From Halostagnicola larsenii XH-48 (lineage in GTDB: Archaea > Halobacteriota > Halobacteria > Halobacteriales > Natrialbaceae): a stretch of DNA of 64,000 nt. Shown here in pieces: positions 1 through 19,923 of this stretch. A program made the translations under genes and the position numbers. The stretch is from contig NZ_CP007055.1 of assembly GCF_000517625.1 (NCBI RefSeq), forward strand, positions 992,001 through 1,056,000, in the 5' to 3' direction. Under the pieces are notes generated by a model that saw nothing but the letters and a program-made list of their open reading frames with translations, was not told the origin of the DNA and did no database searches. Every line of letters begins with the position of its first letter. The first letter of the stretch is position 1.

Positions 1-971
1 GCGATTCGGTGTTCGTTCGGGTGGCGACCGTCGGTCTCGCGACTGTCGATCGCGTAGGTGTTCCCGGTCACGAACGCGACGCGGCCGTCGTTCGCGTAGG
101 CGTGATTCGGATAGGCATAGAGCGTTTCGCCGTCGATTTCGACCTCGGTCGCGAGGTCGACGCGCCACAGTTCGGCCCCGCCCGGACCGAGCAGGTAGCC
201 GCGCTTGTCGCCGTGACTCGAGACGGCGATCCGGTCGCCGTCGAACGAAACGTCGCCGACGCGTCGGTCACCTTCGGTGCCGGGGTCCCAGGACCACTCG
301 GGCGTTCCCGTCTCGGTCTCGAGGACGACCAGTCCGTTGTCGTGCTCGCCCATACACCGGTTGTAGCCGACCGCGAGGCACTCACCTGTTTCGTCGAGGT
401 CGATCGAAATCGGCGACGCGTCGGTCTCGTAGCGCCAGCGAACCGTGCCGTCGGCCTCGAACGCGTAGACGGTGCTGTGCCACTCGCGGCGCTCCCCGTC
501 GCGTTCGTAGCGTCGAGCCGCGGCGTACAGCTCGGGGCCTGATCCGCTTTCAGGTGCGTTCTCGCTGTTCCGGTCGCCGCCAGCCTCGAGGGCGACGACG
601 TAGGGCAGGTAGAAGATGCTCTCCCTTGAGGCCGCACCGACATCTTCGGCCGTGTCGGCGGACCAGCGCTTCGCACCCGACTCGAGGTCGTACGCTGCGA
701 TCGTTCCGGACTCGCCGCGACCCGCGACGACGAGCGAATCACCGACTGTCTCGAGGCCGACCGCGTGCTCCGGATGGTCGACTGACCACCGGGTCTCGAG
801 CGTGTCTCGATCGAACGCGGTGACGGTTCCGTCCCACTCGCCGGCCACGACGAGCGAATCGGTTGCGTGGACGCTCGAGCGCGTCCACATGTGCCGGCTC
901 CGAGCATTCTCGATGTCTCCCAGCGGTCGCGTCTCGAAGGGTTCCGACGGCGCGTGTTCGTTCGCCGCCAT
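1..971 (-). CDS. PQQ-like beta-propeller repeat protein, last gene of the cbi operon (3' end outside window)
   Basis: An open frame runs from an ATG at 971 to the left edge without a stop (323 codons seen), so the C-terminus is missing. The protein contains repeated blades of the type 'V.AFD..TLETRW' and 'VVLETETGTPEW', the pattern of PQQ-like or BamB-like WD-type propellers. No signal peptide or lipobox is visible at the N-terminus, so it is probably cytoplasmic. It starts 2 nt after the DUF3209 stop codon and is therefore most likely translated with the cobalamin operon. No catalytic motif is visible; a scaffold or binding role in corrin synthesis or cobalt handling is only inferred from position. 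Confidence 0.8.
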   Translation of the reverse strand, partial: MAANEHAPSEPFETRPLGDIENARSRHMWTRSSVHATDSLVVAGEWDGTVTAFDRDTLETRWSVDHPEHAVGLETVGDSLVVAGRGESGTIAAYDLESGAKRWSADTAEDVGAASRESIFYLPYVVALEAGGDRNSENAPESGSGPELYAAARRYERDGERREWHSTVYAFEADGTVRWRYETDASPISIDLDETGECLAVGYNRCMGEHDNGLVVLETETGTPEWSWDPGTEGDRRVGDVSFDGDRIAVSSHGDKRGYLLGPGGAELWRVDLATEVEIDGETLYAYPNHAYANDGRVAFVTGNTYAIDSRETDGRHPNEHRI

Positions 972-973
972 GC

Positions 974-1342
974 TTACTCCTCCGGAAACGTCTCGTGGAG
1001 CAGGTCGTGGGCGTCCTTGAGTCCCTCGAAGATACTCTCGCCCTGCGCGGTCAGCCGGTGGACGGCGCGTTCGGCGTCGCGGACGGCGAGCAGTCGCCCC
1101 CGCGTGTAGTCGTATTCGGGGTCATCCTCGTCCATCGTCGCGACCGTCTCCTCTAAGTCTACGAGTGCCGCGTCGAGGTGGCGTTCGATTTCGGCGAGGC
1201 TTTCGGCCGCCGCTAGGGCTTCGATCGGTCCCTCGAGGTGGCCTTCGAGGTCTTTCTCCGCGTGCTCGCGGGCGTGTCGGTCCCCGACGCCGAGGACGTT
1301 CATCAGTCCGAGTCTGAGCGCTTCGATTTCGTAACAGCTCAT
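974..1342 (-). CDS. DUF3209 family protein
   Basis: A 122-residue acidic, mostly helical protein that I recognise as the DUF3209 family, which I know from haloarchaeal cobalamin clusters. It begins MSCYEIEALRLGLMNVLG and has conserved His and Asp/Glu residues (for example DRHAREHAEKD near residues 21-31) that could bind metal. There is no signal peptide or membrane segment. It lies 34 nt after cbiX and 2 nt before the propeller gene, in the same operon. The function is unknown; the position next to the cobalt chelatase suggests a part in metal delivery or corrin handling, which is inference. Confidence 0.85.
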   Translation of the reverse strand: MSCYEIEALRLGLMNVLGVGDRHAREHAEKDLEGHLEGPIEALAAAESLAEIERHLDAALVDLEETVATMDEDDPEYDYTRGRLLAVRDAERAVHRLTAQGESIFEGLKDAHDLLHETFPEE

Positions 1343-1376: not shown

Positions 1377-2597
1377 TCAGAGCGTCTGATCGACGAGATC
1401 GCTCACGATGCGATCTCGATCGAGGTGATCAGAGACGATTCGATCCGCGTCGGTTTCGTCGACATCGCCGTACCAGATGCCGTCCGGGTAGACGGCGACC
1501 ATCGGCCCGTCGCCACAGCGGCCGAGACAGGACGATCTGGTGATCCGGGCGTCGCAGTGTTCGGAGTCGCGGGCTGCCTGTCGCAGGCGCTCGAGCACGG
1601 CCGACGACCCCATCCCCGAGCAGGTTCGATTCGTGCAGACGGCGACGTGTTTCCCCGGCGCGTCGTGGCTGTGTGGCTCGTCGTCGACGTCCTCGCGGTC
1701 GGCGTGACTCTCCTGGTGGGCGAGCGCTCGCAGCATCGCTCGAGCGCCGCCCCGATCCTCCTCGTAGCCCTCGAGGTCGACTTTGTACTTGCAGGTGTCA
1801 CAGGACATCTCGACGCTGTTCGATCGGGCCTCCTGCCAGCGGTCGGCGAAAACGTCGAGTAGTCTCGAGTCCGTTCCCAGCGGGTCGCCCGCGACCGCCT
1901 CGACGTAGGGGTAGTCCGCGTCGAACTCGTCGGTCCAGTCGCGGACGCGCTGGGTTAACACGCCGTCGCCGAGCATGTACGGCAGGACCACGACGGCGTC
2001 GGGTCGGTGTTTCGAGAGCCCGTGAAGCGATTCCTCGAGCGTCGGTTCCGTCACGCCGACGAACGACGCCTCGACTCGCGAGAACTCCCGACCTTCGTAG
2101 AGCAACCTGGCCAGCTTGTGCACGTCGCCGTTGGCGTCCGGATCGCTCGAGCCCCGCGCACAGAGAACGACGGCAACGTCGTCTTCGTCCCGATCGACGC
2201 CCAACCGGCGTTCGACGGCCGCGGCGCGGTCCTCGAGCAAGTCGAGAATCGCCGGGTGAATGCCCAGGTGCGCGCCGTTGTTGATCTCGATTCCGTGGGT
2301 TGCTCGAGCCTGCTCGACCGCAAGCGGTACGTCGTTTTTGACGTGGCTCGCCGCGAACAGCGAGCAGTGGACGACGGTGACCTCGCTCGCGAGCGCCGCC
2401 AGCGTCTCGAAGGCCTCGTCGATGGCCGGCTCCGCCAACTCGAGAAACGCGGCGTCGACGGGGATCCCGAGTCGCGACTCGAGGGCCGCGGCCAGTTCGC
2501 GAACCTGTTCGTTCGAGCGCTCGCGCCTCGAGCCGTGGCCGACCAGCAGGACGGCCTCGTCGTCGAAGGCGAACGCGATGTCGTCGGTTTTGCTCAT
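1377..2597 (-). CDS. cbiX: Sirohydrochlorin cobaltochelatase CbiX with C-terminal iron-sulfur domains
   Basis: Inserts cobalt into sirohydrochlorin at the start of the early-cobalt (anaerobic-type) cobalamin pathway. The first 250 residues carry two CbiX half-domains, with the metal-site signature LLVGHGSRRERSN near residue 18 and HCSLFAASHVKND near residue 76. A CDTCKYK segment follows at about residue 266, resembling the iron-sulfur region of DR2241-type CbiX. The last ~80 residues form a thioredoxin-like [2Fe-2S] ferredoxin domain (CTNRTC, then CLGRCGDGPMVAVYPDG). At 406 residues it is much longer than minimal archaeal CbiX (about 130), because it is a duplicated, two-module form. It lies 60 nt downstream of the LAGLIDADG-like gene. 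Confidence 0.93.
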   Translation of the reverse strand: MSKTDDIAFAFDDEAVLLVGHGSRRERSNEQVRELAAALESRLGIPVDAAFLELAEPAIDEAFETLAALASEVTVVHCSLFAASHVKNDVPLAVEQARATHGIEINNGAHLGIHPAILDLLEDRAAAVERRLGVDRDEDDVAVVLCARGSSDPDANGDVHKLARLLYEGREFSRVEASFVGVTEPTLEESLHGLSKHRPDAVVVLPYMLGDGVLTQRVRDWTDEFDADYPYVEAVAGDPLGTDSRLLDVFADRWQEARSNSVEMSCDTCKYKVDLEGYEEDRGGARAMLRALAHQESHADREDVDDEPHSHDAPGKHVAVCTNRTCSGMGSSAVLERLRQAARDSEHCDARITRSSCLGRCGDGPMVAVYPDGIWYGDVDETDADRIVSDHLDRDRIVSDLVDQTL

Positions 2598-2657: not shown

Positions 2658-3380
2658 TCAGTCGTAGGCGTCGGCCTGCTCGAGGCTCTTTCGTAACTTT
2701 CGCTCGCGACTCGGCGCGTAGAGGCCGGTCTCATCGCAGTCCTCGTAGAGCCACGTGCCGAACTCGGGGGCGGCGTCGTCGTCGACGCCGAACCAGAATC
2801 CGCCCGAGGAAGTCTCCGAGAGGTTTCCCATCGGTGCGTCTACCGGGCAGTCTTCGATCAGCTCTCGAGTCAGTTCGAGAAGCGTCTCGTCGTCGTGGAC
2901 GAACGAGATGCCCACGGTCCCTCTCGTGGACTTGAAACAGATCGTTCCACAGCCCTCGAGGATGCCCCGAAGCAGCTCCCGATCGTGGCTCGCGAACGCC
3001 GAGAAGCGGTAGCTCCCGCGGCCGTCGACTGGGAGACCGAGCGTCCCGCTGCGTCCGAACAGTCCGTCTCCCGCGTTCTCCGCATCCTTCTCACCCGTGG
3101 AGCCGATCTCGAGCGTGTACTCGTCTTCGGTTCGGGTGATCGACGCGTCGTGGGCGTACTCGCGACTGGCCGTCTCGTGGTCGATCTCGCCGCCGGCAAT
3201 GGTTGCGAGCACTTTTGCGGACTCCTCGTCGTTGGTCACGACTTCGACGGTTCCCTCGCCAACGTCGCCGCTCCCGGCGACGTGACCCCAGAGGTAGGCC
3301 GACGCGGGGTGGCCAGCGAGCGGGTCGGCGGGGACCTCGATCTCGAGCGGGTCGCTGTCGGATCCGGCGGCGTCGCTCAT
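2658..3380 (-). CDS. LAGLIDADG-fold protein of the cobalamin operon, probably without nuclease activity
   Basis: A 240-residue protein, usually annotated only as a cobalamin-operon protein. Two segments look like the paired LAGLIDADG helices: YLWGHVAGSGDV (residues 29-40) and RELLRGILEGCGTICF (134-149). Each is followed by a beta strand and a 'DEESAKVLATI' or 'DDETLLELTRELI' helix, and the C-terminal WLYEDCDETGLYAPSRERK resembles the last element of LAGLIDADG domains. The acidic catalytic positions are Ser37 and Cys144, so cleavage activity is unlikely. The ATG at 3380 was chosen because an upstream in-frame extension would overlap the ferredoxin gene. It lies 16 nt after the ferredoxin. The homology is by eye; the role in cobalamin synthesis is unknown. 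Confidence 0.8.
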   Translation of the reverse strand: MSDAAGSDSDPLEIEVPADPLAGHPASAYLWGHVAGSGDVGEGTVEVVTNDEESAKVLATIAGGEIDHETASREYAHDASITRTEDEYTLEIGSTGEKDAENAGDGLFGRSGTLGLPVDGRGSYRFSAFASHDRELLRGILEGCGTICFKSTRGTVGISFVHDDETLLELTRELIEDCPVDAPMGNLSETSSGGFWFGVDDDAAPEFGTWLYEDCDETGLYAPSRERKLRKSLEQADAYD

Positions 3381-3396: not shown

Positions 3397-3663
3397 TCAT
3401 TCGCCCACCTCGCGAACGACGATGGCGTCCGTCGGACAGGCCGCGGCGGCTTGCTGGGCCTCGTCGATCCGTTCGTCGTCAAACGTCGCGACGACTCGTT
3501 CGTCCATGTCGGTCACCTCGCCCTCGCAGTCGTAGACGGGATCTGCGTCGGGATCGATCGTCGCCAGCCCGTCGTCGCCCTCGACGAACCGCGGATCGCG
3601 GGTCAGGCAGGCGAAGATGCCGTCGCAGGCGTCTTTCTCGATGGTGATCTCGTAGGCCGGCAT
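3397..3663 (-). CDS. Ferredoxin, probably [3Fe-4S] type
   Basis: An 88-residue electron-transfer protein. Cys13 and Cys19 (CDGIFAC, C-x5-C) and a late CPTDAI motif give the three-cysteine arrangement of small [3Fe-4S] ferredoxins. The second cysteine of a normal CxxCxxxC motif is absent. The region between holds an acidic loop, as in halophilic ferredoxins. It starts 2 nt after the cbiH1 stop codon, so it is translated with the corrin-ring methyltransferases. It may deliver electrons to a redox step of corrin synthesis, such as C-ring contraction or the precorrin-6 reduction for which no gene is visible here. A [4Fe-4S] cluster with a non-Cys ligand is an alternative. Confidence 0.88.
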   Translation of the reverse strand: MPAYEITIEKDACDGIFACLTRDPRFVEGDDGLATIDPDADPVYDCEGEVTDMDERVVATFDDERIDEAQQAAAACPTDAIVVREVGE

Positions 3664-3665
3664 GG

Positions 3666-4655
3666 TTAGTAGTCGTACTTCGTCTCGTAGCCACGCGGGG
3701 TGACCATCCGGTCGTCCCAGACGTAGGTCTCCTCGTTGCCGACGACGATGGTCGTCGTCATGTCGATGATCTCGCTTTCGCCGAGCTCCTCGAGTTCGCC
3801 CAGCTCCGTGATCAGCACCTGCTCGTCCTCGCGGCCCGCGCCGTGGACGATGCCGACCGGCGTGTCGTGGTCGCGATGGGTCAGCAGGATCTCACAGCAC
3901 TTCTGGAAGTTCTCTCGGCGCTTGCGGCTCCACGGGTTGTAGATCGTGATCGTGAAGCTCTCGCTCGCGACCGAATGCAGGCGCGACTCGATTTCGGGCA
4001 TCGGAACGAGGTGATCCGAGAGCGAAATCGAGACGGTGTCGTTCACGAGGGGAGCGCCGAGGCGAGCCCCGCAGGACTGGGCCGCCGGAACGCCGGGGAC
4101 AACCTCGAAGTCGACCATCGACGCCGTCGCGCCCTTGGATTCGATGATCTCGAGCGCCAGTCCCGCCAGTGCGTAGACGTTGGGGTCGCCGCTGCCGACG
4201 ATAGCCACGTCGTTGCCCGCGAGCGTGCGGTCGATCGCTTCTTCCGTGCGCGAGACTTCGCCGCACATCGGCGTATCGTACAGTTCGTCGGCTTCTTCGG
4301 TGATCTCGTCGGGAATGAGGTCGATGTAGGTCGTGTAGCCGACGATATGTTCGGCCTCGAGCAGCGCCGCTTTCGCCCGTTCGGTCATCCCCTCCGGGTG
4401 GCCGGGACCGAGTCCGACCGCGATCAGTTGCCCGGGCTCAGCGTCGAAGTCCTCGACAGTGGAGCCGACCTTCTCGTCGGTTTTCTCCTGCTTGCTCGAG
4501 GCGGAACTCGAGCCGCACTTGGAACTCGAGGACGACGAATCGCTCGAGGCGTCCGAACTCCCGCCGCACTTCGAGGACGTCTCTTCGCTCCCGCTCGTCG
4601 ACGCGCCGCATTTGGATGTCGATTCGGTTTCGTCTGCGTTGGTATCAGTACTCAT
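3666..4655 (-). CDS. cbiH1: Cobalt-precorrin-3B C17-methyltransferase, copy 1, with Cys/Ser-rich N-terminal extension
   Basis: SAM-dependent methyltransferase that methylates C17 and drives ring contraction of cobalt-precorrin-3. The tetrapyrrole methylase domain starts near residue 75 with LIAVGLGPGHPEGMT, followed by IVGYTTYIDLI, GSGDPNVYALAG and EVVPGVPAAQSCGARLGAPL, typical of CbiH/CobJ. The ~65 residues before it are Ser-rich, contain three Lys-Cys-Gly units (SKCGAS, SKCGGS, SKCGSS) and have no counterpart in ordinary CbiH. This makes the protein 329 residues instead of about 250. It lies 12 nt downstream of cbiH2 and 2 nt upstream of the ferredoxin gene. Which of the two CbiH copies does the classical reaction cannot be told from sequence. 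Confidence 0.92.
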   Translation of the reverse strand: MSTDTNADETESTSKCGASTSGSEETSSKCGGSSDASSDSSSSSSKCGSSSASSKQEKTDEKVGSTVEDFDAEPGQLIAVGLGPGHPEGMTERAKAALLEAEHIVGYTTYIDLIPDEITEEADELYDTPMCGEVSRTEEAIDRTLAGNDVAIVGSGDPNVYALAGLALEIIESKGATASMVDFEVVPGVPAAQSCGARLGAPLVNDTVSISLSDHLVPMPEIESRLHSVASESFTITIYNPWSRKRRENFQKCCEILLTHRDHDTPVGIVHGAGREDEQVLITELGELEELGESEIIDMTTTIVVGNEETYVWDDRMVTPRGYETKYDY

Positions 4656-9197: not shown

Positions 9198-9224
9198 CAC
9201 CCGAGGGAACAGAAGCCACCCCTA

Positions 9225-9238
9225 AAACAATTTTGTTT
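9225..9238. promoter_or_regulatory. Candidate operator upstream of the cbi operon
   Basis: A perfect inverted repeat, AAACAA-TT-TTGTTT, lies 28-41 nt before the cbiT start, inside the only AT-rich patch of the region. Two looser partners follow: CAAT-CTGT-ATTG at about 9248-9259 and a TTGTT near 9290. The placement where a TATA box or regulator would act suggests promoter control of the whole operon. The regulator is unknown, and no B12 riboswitch features are visible. Confidence 0.5.
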
Positions 9239-9360
9239 GGTATAGAACAATCTGTATTGCTCATTCTGAATTGGGGTAGCACAAATTCCGTTGTTCATTC
9301 GACGGTGAACGAGAGGATTTCGAGCGCGTTCGTTCGCTCGCCACTTCGACGGATGCTGAC

Positions 9361-17579: not shown

Positions 17580-17613
17580 CGTGTTTTTAAACCTCTATTG
17601 TATTAGCGCAAGC
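17580..17613. promoter_or_regulatory. Compact divergent promoter of cobN and chlID
   Basis: The two chelatase genes are separated by only 34 nt. A TATA-like GTTTTTAAAC (17583-17592) sits about 25 nt before the chlID ATG at 17614, fitting a leaderless chlID transcript. The cobN promoter must lie in the same gap or inside chlID; read on the minus strand the gap contains CTAATACAAT as a weak TATA candidate. Both directions therefore share most promoter bases. Confidence 0.6.
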
Positions 17614-19923
17614 ATGGTTGCAAACGCTGGAGACAAAAAGCTATCGTCACTCCCCTTTCCAGCGATCGTCGGGCAGGAGGAACTCAAGCGAGTGTTGCTC
17701 GCCGTCGCCGTCAACGACGAACTCGACGGCGCGCTCGTCGCCGGGGAAAAAGGAACGGCGAAGTCGACGGCCGTCCGCGCGCTGGTCGACCTGCTCCCTG
17801 AGCAACGAGTGGTTGCCGACTGTCCGTACGGCTGTTCGCCGGACGACCCGCGTCTGCAGTGTATGAACTGTCGAACGCGCGCGGACGGTCGAGAGGAGAA
17901 CGACGCTCGAGCGGAACTCCCGATCGAAACGCGGCCGGTTCCGCTCGTCACGCTTCCCCTCGGAGCCACTCGCGACCGCGTCGTCGGAACCCTCTCCGTC
18001 GAGGACGCGCTCGCCGGCGAGGCAGACTTCGACCCCGGACTGGTAGCCCGCGCGCATCGGGGAATTCTCTACGTCGACGAGGTCAATCTTCTCGAGGATC
18101 ACCTGGTCGACGTCATCCTCGACGCGGCGGCGAGCGGCGTCAACACCGTCGAGCGGGACGGCGTGAGCGTCTCCCATCCCGCCGAGTTCACGCTCATCGG
18201 GACGATGAACCCCGAGGAGGGCGATCTCCGTCCGCAGCTTCGGGACCGATTCGCGCTGCAGGCGACCGTCGAGGGCTGTCGGGAGATCGAAGATCGCGTC
18301 GAAATCATCGACCGCTCGCTCGGCCTCGGTCGCGAGAACGCCGACAGCACGTCCGCCGCCGACCCCGACTTCAAGTACGCCGCTGACGTTCGAGCCCTCC
18401 GAAACGACCTCGCGGACGCCCGGGATCGGCTCCCGGCAGTCGAGCTCCCCGCCGATTTCAAAGCCGACATCGCTCGGCTCTGTCTCGAGGCCGATGTCGA
18501 CGGCCATCGCGGCGATGTCGCCACCGCCAGGACGGCCAGAACGATCGCCGCGCTCGAGGGACGGACGACCGTCATCGAGCCCGACGTACGCGAAGCCGCT
18601 TCGTACACCCTCCCCCACCGGCTTCGGAGTACCCCCTTCGAGGAGGCCCCCGATCTCGAGGACCTGCTCGACGAGGAGTTCGACGACCCCGCCGACGCCG
18701 AGAGCGAGTCGGACGACGCGAACGACGGAGAGGGCGATGACGACGAGGAGAACGGTGGCGACGGCGGCGAAGCTGGAAAAGACGGCAGTAAAGGTGAGAC
18801 GGGCGCCGACGGTGAGCAAGACCGCAACGAAGCTGGAGAACCCGGAAACGACGATGAGAAATATGGTAGCAGGGACGGGCAGGAATCAGCGTCCGACCAG
18901 CCGAACGGCCCTTCACCGGCTGAAGAGCCCGCCGACGGTGAACGAGCAAGCGGCGAGTCCGGCCCCTCGAGCGAGCGGCGAGCCGACGCGGGGTCCGAAC
19001 GTGGCGAAAGTGACGGTGAGACCGACCGCGACAATAGCCGCGAAGACGACAGCGGCGATGGGGAGGACGACGGTGGGAGCGCCGACGAGACGGCGACACC
19101 ATTACTACCCGGCCAGCGGGCCGACATCGGCGAGGCGGACGCACCGAATCTCGAGATCGGGTCCGCGACCGAGACTCGCGGAGACACGTCCGGCGGCTCT
19201 CGAGCGAGCACGGCCCCGACGACCGACGGCCGCGGGGCCCGCGTCCGGACCGAACCCGTTTCCGAGAGCGACGGGACCGGATCGATCGACGCCGCCGCAT
19301 CCGTCCGATCGGCGGCGAGTCGCGGCGAGTCGCGCGTCGGCGAGCAGGACCTTCGTCGGTCCGTCCGAAGCAGCGACGCGGCGGCGACGATCGTGTTCGC
19401 GGTCGACGCGAGCGCCTCGATGGCCCCCGCGATGCGAACGGCGAAGGGGGTCGTCCTCGACCTGCTTCGAGACAGCTACCAGCGCCGCGACGAGGTCGCG
19501 TTCGTCGCGTTCGCCGGAGACGACGCCGACGTGCTTCTTCCCCCGACTACCAGCGTCACGCTCGCCGCGCGCCACCTCAAGGACCTCCCCTCCGGCGATC
19601 GCACGCCGCTTCCGGCAGGCATAGAGACGACCCGATCGGTCCTCGAGCGGACGGACACCGACGCGTCGGTCGTCGTTCTGGTCACCGACGGCGGGGCGAA
19701 CGTCGCGGGAGAATCCGCTAGTCCGACGGAGGCGACGCGACGGGCAGCCAGACGGCTCCGCGCCGCGGGCGCGTTGGTCGTCGTCGTCGATGCGGGAGAC
19801 GACTCTCGAGCCGGGCTCTCCGAACTCGTCGCCGCCGAAACGGGGGGCGAACTCGTCTCGCTGTCCGCACTTTCGGTCGAAACCGTGCGCTCGGCCGCGG
19901 AGTCAGTCCCGCAAAAGGAGTAA
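17614..19923 (+). CDS. chlID: Chelatase ATPase subunit, ChlI-ChlD fusion (AAA+ and VWA), partner of CobN
   Basis: Single 769-residue protein combining the AAA+ ATPase of ChlI/BchI with the VWA domain of ChlD/BchD. Walker A is GEKGTAKST (residues 44-52), Walker B lies in GILYVDEVNLLEDHLVDVIL and sensor 1 in FTLIGTMNPEEGDLR. Four cysteines (70, 74, 83 and 86; CPYGC then CMNC) form a likely metal-binding insert. A very acidic Gly/Ser/Asp/Glu linker occupies roughly residues 350-580. The C-terminal VWA has a MIDAS DASAS and LVTDGGAN. The ATG at 17614 was chosen over an upstream ATG that would overlap cobN. It should supply ATP-driven remodelling for cobalt insertion by CobN. Confidence 0.92.
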   Translation: MVANAGDKKLSSLPFPAIVGQEELKRVLLAVAVNDELDGALVAGEKGTAKSTAVRALVDLLPEQRVVADCPYGCSPDDPRLQCMNCRTRADGREENDARAELPIETRPVPLVTLPLGATRDRVVGTLSVEDALAGEADFDPGLVARAHRGILYVDEVNLLEDHLVDVILDAAASGVNTVERDGVSVSHPAEFTLIGTMNPEEGDLRPQLRDRFALQATVEGCREIEDRVEIIDRSLGLGRENADSTSAADPDFKYAADVRALRNDLADARDRLPAVELPADFKADIARLCLEADVDGHRGDVATARTARTIAALEGRTTVIEPDVREAASYTLPHRLRSTPFEEAPDLEDLLDEEFDDPADAESESDDANDGEGDDDEENGGDGGEAGKDGSKGETGADGEQDRNEAGEPGNDDEKYGSRDGQESASDQPNGPSPAEEPADGERASGESGPSSERRADAGSERGESDGETDRDNSREDDSGDGEDDGGSADETATPLLPGQRADIGEADAPNLEIGSATETRGDTSGGSRASTAPTTDGRGARVRTEPVSESDGTGSIDAAASVRSAASRGESRVGEQDLRRSVRSSDAAATIVFAVDASASMAPAMRTAKGVVLDLLRDSYQRRDEVAFVAFAGDDADVLLPPTTSVTLAARHLKDLPSGDRTPLPAGIETTRSVLERTDTDASVVVLVTDGGANVAGESASPTEATRRAARRLRAAGALVVVVDAGDDSRAGLSELVAAETGGELVSLSALSVETVRSAAESVPQKE

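Follow-up and report, generated by a model that had tools for sequence, protein, structure and literature searches.

The window, by which we mean the whole 64,000-nucleotide stretch of Halostagnicola larsenii XH-48 DNA analysed here, carries a cobalamin biosynthesis cluster in the order cbiT-cbiL-cbiF-cbiG-cbiH1-cbiH2-ferredoxin-LAGLIDADG gene-cbiX-DUF3209-PQQ protein. The gene of interest, which we name after the LAGLIDADG fold predicted for its product, has the following surroundings:

1..971, minus strand: PQQ-like beta-propeller gene, the last of the module, cut by the window start
974..1342, minus strand: DUF3209 gene, which co-occurs with the LAGLIDADG gene
1377..2597, minus strand: cbiX, adjacent downstream, with a C-terminal 2Fe-2S thioredoxin-like domain
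2658..3380, minus strand: LAGLIDADG-protein gene, 240 amino acids plus stop, judged nuclease-dead from its sequence, the counterpart of HVO_B0055 by position
3397..3663, minus strand: ferredoxin gene (Fer4_15), adjacent upstream, a partner gene by synteny and co-absence

A sequence-only reading of this DNA had placed the gene between the ferredoxin and cbiX, and both the open reading frame and its two neighbors were confirmed. By itself, the window protein gave no Pfam, NCBIfam or PDB match in family scans and phmmer searches; the LAGLIDADG signal emerges only through its homologues and through structure. The product names given to these homologues by NCBI are 'cobalamin biosynthesis protein' or 'hypothetical protein'. 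In Haloferax volcanii, the same gene position, between cbiX1 (B0054) and B0056, is occupied by HVO_B0055, whose function is unassigned and which is one of four unassigned cluster genes named by Pfeiffer and Dyall-Smith as pathway-gap candidates (PMC8305020). We equated the window gene with HVO_B0055 by gene order only. The word LAGLIDADG is absent from the main text of that paper. A full-text search for HVO_B0055 returned this single open paper, and none of the top full-text results linked LAGLIDADG proteins to cobalamin or haloarchaea; neither search covered subscription papers or supplements.

We utilized an alignment of 41 homologues to build an AlphaFold model of the window protein. The model (pLDDT 88, pTM 0.86) is composed of two alpha-beta-beta-alpha halves, with the motif helices at residues 25-37 and 127-144. 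When the model was searched against the PDB with Foldseek, the first 44 matches were all LAGLIDADG proteins, with E-values from 8.9e-7 and query-normalised TM-scores of about 0.4-0.55. These matches cover homing endonucleases, maturases, inteins and WhiA, and include I-Tsp061I (8.9e-7), the bI3 maturase, I-DmoI and PI-SceI by name. A second AlphaFold model, of homologue L074 (37% identity), had a pLDDT of 90; its first 36 PDB matches were exclusively LAGLIDADG proteins, with full-length WhiA ranked second (3.4e-6). A fold search of a viral library agreed with the PDB result, placing named LAGLIDADG and intein proteins among the best matches. The two-fold alpha-beta-beta-alpha-beta-beta-alpha architecture of the LAGLIDADG superfamily is present in the window protein, in predicted structure only. 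The fold proposed by the sequence-only reading is thereby borne out by two models whose leading PDB matches all belong to the superfamily, WhiA included, and we conclude that, by prediction and without a solved structure, the window protein has the single-chain LAGLIDADG fold. The model of the window protein also places a helix at the C-terminus:

2664..2714, minus strand: C-terminal helix (residues 223-239), in which the basic run R225-(R226)-R227-K228 is conserved

LAGLIDADG_3 proteins typically close with a basic run of this kind. At position 226, 94% of the homologues have Arg, whereas the window protein has Glu.

At the sequence level, 13 of the 41 homologues matched Pfam LAGLIDADG_3 (PF14528) when scanned singly, some at motif 1 and others at motif 2. 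The best match, homologue L025 (E 2.7e-5, two stretches), reached 24.8 bits against the curated cut-off of 22.5 and was the only one to exceed it, the other 12 being weaker. The family profile matched the GyrB intein of the haloarchaeal genome G063 (E 0.0023), and when aligned with a profile of nine intein domains from haloarchaea it ran collinear over both motifs (E 4.4e-4); because the probability of this profile-profile alignment was only 34%, we regard it as supporting rather than decisive. Searching PDB sequences with the family profile (hmmsearch) gave chance-level matches only. The LAGLIDADG similarity exceeds chance. Both LAGLIDADG-like helices claimed earlier appear in the model, and both motifs align across homologues; Gly32 and Gly139, which lie at the LAGLIDADG helix interface, are invariant in 133 homologues. 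One homologue (L075 1498-2208, genome G298) carries about 17 extra residues in the second strand after motif 2.

We then considered the catalytic positions and the most conserved residues, which are encoded as follows:

3267..3299, minus strand: LAGLIDADG motif 1, residues 28-38 AYLWGHVAGSG, with the codon of Ser37, a catalytic position, at 3270-3272
3150..3152, minus strand: codon of His77 in the strand hairpin of half 1, invariant in 133 of 133 distinct homologues
2946..2972, minus strand: LAGLIDADG motif 2, residues 137-145 LRGILEGCG, with the codon of Cys144, a catalytic position, at 2949-2951
2937..2939, minus strand: codon of Cys148 in the first strand after motif 2, invariant in 133 of 133 distinct homologues

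Ser37 and Cys144 had been assigned to the catalytic positions, and this assignment holds in the LAGLIDADG register, with an intein Glu opposite both residues in the intein alignment. Of the 133 distinct homologues, in which the two motifs align, 130 have Cys at position 144 and the remaining three have Ser, Ala and Thr, respectively; none has Asp or Glu there. Position 37 is Ser in 75, Asp in 44, Gly in 7, Asn in 6 and Ala in 1, with about seven changes between acid and non-acid on a maximum-likelihood tree computed with this column left out. The proposed loss of the acid pair is thus complete for the second acid, which is gone from every homologue, but only partial for the first. With the second acid lost family-wide and the first one drifting, a two-acid nuclease of the normal kind can be ruled out, from sequence and not from activity data. 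The median dN/dS over 52 close pairs was 0.17, indicating that the protein is under purifying selection. Away from the catalytic positions, Ser159, Trp196, Phe197, Arg225 and Lys228 are invariant along with His77 and Cys148. Although the protein has only about 19 Lys+Arg and a net charge of about -26, eleven alignment columns are conserved as basic at 85% or more.

We analyzed the distribution of the gene across Halobacteria. It was present in 205 of 391 genomes and CbiG in 210, with about 202 genomes carrying both (lists compared by eye; phi about 0.94 by our own arithmetic). Among 295 genomes sampled from the phylum, matches to the gene were confined to Halobacteria. The ferredoxin-LAGLIDADG-cbiX order was found at all 80 of 80 named loci. 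DUF3209 and the LAGLIDADG gene occurred together in 142 genomes, with three DUF3209-only exceptions and one spurious LAGLIDADG match, again by comparing lists by eye. There were three cases of the gene without CbiG, of which G332 and G355 (an incomplete draft) are real; the third, a match in G153 (E 9e-5), was rejected as spurious, the profile search finding nothing there. In G046, the LAGLIDADG gene lies on a different contig from the main cluster.

Conversely, eight CbiG genomes had no LAGLIDADG gene; the profile search returned no match in seven of them and only the intein in G063. Six of the eight were read in detail (G374, G333, G045, G047, G063 and G016). The first five lack the LAGLIDADG gene, the cluster ferredoxin and DUF3209 alike; CbiX is without the 2Fe-2S tail in G045, G047 and G063, and no cbiX is present in the cluster of G374 and G333. 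G016 lacks the LAGLIDADG gene yet keeps the ferredoxin, DUF3209 and the rest of the cluster.

Several further features of these clusters were observed. In G016, the exact place of the LAGLIDADG gene is taken by a short second copy of cbiX whose end is His-rich (L086 10703-11644). In clusters with ferredoxin and DUF3209 (L086 and the window), CbiX has the 2Fe-2S domain at its C-terminus, and a His-rich tail replaces this domain where they are missing, as in G045 and G047 (L081-L085). A 638-amino-acid open frame in G318, considered as a LAGLIDADG-CbiX fusion, was rejected as a GC-rich overlapping frame, and no fusion of the LAGLIDADG protein with CbiX or ferredoxin was found. The start of CbiH2 (window 4480-4655, minus strand) is a repetitive Ser-rich stretch in which Cys-Gly-Ala/Gly-Ser units recur; it has a greater length in G016 and G318 and is possibly a metal-binding leader.

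The earlier suggestion that a homing-endonuclease fold had been recruited to another job is supported by the loss of the acid pair, purifying selection, co-occurrence with CbiG and fixed synteny. We are highly confident that the protein is a nuclease-dead, domesticated member of the LAGLIDADG fold tied to corrin synthesis, with the fold resting on prediction and the loss of nuclease function on sequence. As its distribution follows that of CbiG, we consider it a dedicated part of de novo (cobalt-early) corrin synthesis in Halobacteria.

An active or nicking homing endonuclease merely seated in the operon would share the LAGLIDADG fold and motifs, and the Asp37 kept in 44 of 133 homologues is in its favor, but the second acid is missing from all 133, the gene is free-standing in an operon without intron or intein context, and its invariable synteny and its occurrence in step with CbiG are not those of a sporadic element; we regard this reading as barely tenable. 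Another proposal is an enzyme filling the gap left by CbiD (C1-methylation) or CbiJ (reduction) in the haloarchaeal cobalt-early pathway, for example a ferredoxin-fed reductase. The gap itself is evident: CbiD (PF01888) was found in 0 of 391 sampled Halobacteria genomes and CbiJ (PF02571) in 0 of 61 relatives tested, G016, G045 and G047 included. HVO_B0055 is also among the four unassigned candidates in the published analysis (PMC8305020), and the invariance of Cys148 and His77 would suit an enzyme. The window protein itself, however, has no Pfam match to PF01888 or PF02571, and we know of no LAGLIDADG-fold methyltransferase or reductase. Moreover, the five CbiG-positive genomes described above possess cbiT, L, F, G, H1 and H2 without CbiD, the LAGLIDADG protein or the cluster ferredoxin; two of them, G045 and G047, are CbiJ-negative as well, and G016 does without the protein while the rest of its cluster is intact. 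The pathway gap is present with or without the LAGLIDADG protein, which argues against a gap-filling role, provided that those genomes make cobalamin. This co-absence test led us to set the proposal aside; we give it only a slim chance, and the protein is probably not the missing CbiD/CbiJ enzyme.

A further alternative is a WhiA-like regulator, in which the dead LAGLIDADG saddle would bind DNA or RNA and tune the cbi operon or another cobalamin-related target. WhiA is among the best fold matches, the eleven conserved basic columns stand out in a very acidic protein, and the gene is located within the operon that it might control. The relevant promoter elements are:

9223..9293, minus strand: conserved array of promoter boxes ahead of cbiT, examined as a possible binding site for the LAGLIDADG protein and found not to depend on it
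17598-17620, minus strand: box in the cobN intergenic region
G000:C1:1827589-1827611: box before ribonucleotide reductase

The box core AATTGTTTTA lies 30-34 bases before cbiT in 58 of 58 readable loci, against 0.36 expected by shuffling; no other operator-like element of the operon is strongly conserved. Upstream of cbiT in the window, the repeat pattern is CAA-N6-TTG-NN-CTA-NNN-CAA, which has four exact matches in the window genome: two before cbiT, one in the gap between cobN and a divergent chelatase gene, and one before ribonucleotide reductase. Pfam gives only the RNR large chain for this reductase, which is probably, judging by its sequence, of the B12-dependent type. The box set looks like a haloarchaeal cobalamin regulon. 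The same box occurs in genome G005 (L246) close to an nrdR gene, whose product combines a Zn-ribbon NrdR domain with an ATP-cone; NrdR or a related factor may therefore read it. Of six genomes that lack the LAGLIDADG protein, five keep the box core when no more than one mismatch is allowed, and in the sixth the core has one extra base. Its presence at ribonucleotide reductase and near nrdR points to a regulon independent of de novo synthesis, unlike the LAGLIDADG protein, and neither Pfam nor the model reveals a helix-turn-helix domain. Because the box persists without the protein, its reader is most likely another protein, and the LAGLIDADG protein was set aside in this capacity; a regulatory role at some other target is weakened, not excluded. 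Co-occurrence in the operon fits an accessory protein and a regulator alike and cannot separate them by itself. To our knowledge, the domesticated non-nuclease LAGLIDADG proteins that can be named all bind nucleic acid, which favors a regulator over an accessory protein. We consider a WhiA-like regulator possible but rather doubtful, a close rival ranking just behind the accessory-binding reading. Among the structural, regulatory and enzymatic roles originally suggested, the enzymatic gap-filler and the simplest operon repressor are thus disfavored, and the evidence does not settle the role.

The explanation that we favor is the accessory one. A single-chain LAGLIDADG protein would have lost DNA cleavage and been domesticated for de novo (cobalt-early) cobalamin synthesis in Halobacteria, where it may belong to an accessory module that also includes the neighboring ferredoxin, DUF3209 and the cobalt chelatase CbiX with its 2Fe-2S tail. 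The LAGLIDADG saddle could hold an anionic partner, be it a tetrapyrrole of the polycarboxylate type or another protein of the module such as ferredoxin, and the protein would act at or near cobalt insertion. We infer the module from the synteny at 80 of 80 loci, the sharing with DUF3209 and the joint absence in the five module-free CbiG genomes, and the anionic ligand from the 11 conserved basic columns in so acidic a protein. The analysis establishes the fold (by prediction), the absence of the acid pair, purifying selection, the shared occurrence and gene order, and membership of the module, whereas the ligand, the site of action and binding rather than catalysis are inferred, with no direct evidence for a ligand or partner. 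Against the accessory reading, the gene is dispensable in G016, with a second cbiX copy in its place; the protein was not found fused to CbiX or ferredoxin; and the G046 gene is off the main cluster contig. As a whole, we see this best explanation as evenly poised between right and wrong. Its mechanism, in which the protein binds without catalysing as part of an accessory module centered on CbiX, is offered tentatively, and with more reserve still we suggest that this LAGLIDADG fold does not act on nucleic acid and instead binds a tetrapyrrole or redox partner in B12 synthesis. If true, this would add a new type of function to those of the fold.

Domesticated LAGLIDADG proteins are rare, and WhiA is the standard prokaryotic example. 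The present family is, as far as could be found, a second prokaryotic one, which is archaeal, lacks a helix-turn-helix and is locked to a metabolic pathway. One of the four haloarchaeal cobalamin-cluster genes left unassigned in PMC8305020 thereby gains a fold and a dead-site signature. The genome comparison arguing against a CbiD/CbiJ role narrows the search for those activities, and the role of the protein is testable in Haloferax volcanii.

WhiA (DUF199) is a domesticated single-chain LAGLIDADG fold without a nuclease role (PMC3984707). The window protein is likewise a domesticated, non-nuclease LAGLIDADG fold by prediction, with fold matches to WhiA structures (3hyi, 3.4e-6; 8dy7_I, 7.5e-4). 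WhiA carries a C-terminal helix-turn-helix, whereas the window protein has none, its LAGLIDADG domain using up the fold and no helix-turn-helix Pfam match being found; WhiA is bacterial and serves cell division and transcription, whereas the window protein is haloarchaeal and tied to corrin synthesis. The LAGLIDADG_3 domains (PF14528) of haloarchaeal inteins have the two-motif arrangement in common with the window family, in collinear order. The intein domains compared, however, have acids at both positions and reside inside host proteins, while the window protein comes from a free-standing gene and has dead positions. Lastly, the archaeal intron-encoded endonucleases I-DmoI and I-Tsp061I are the best PDB fold matches (I-Tsp061I at 8.9e-7 and 1.7e-6); these enzymes cut DNA with two acids, in contrast to the window protein, which has Ser37 and Cys144 in their place and no intron.
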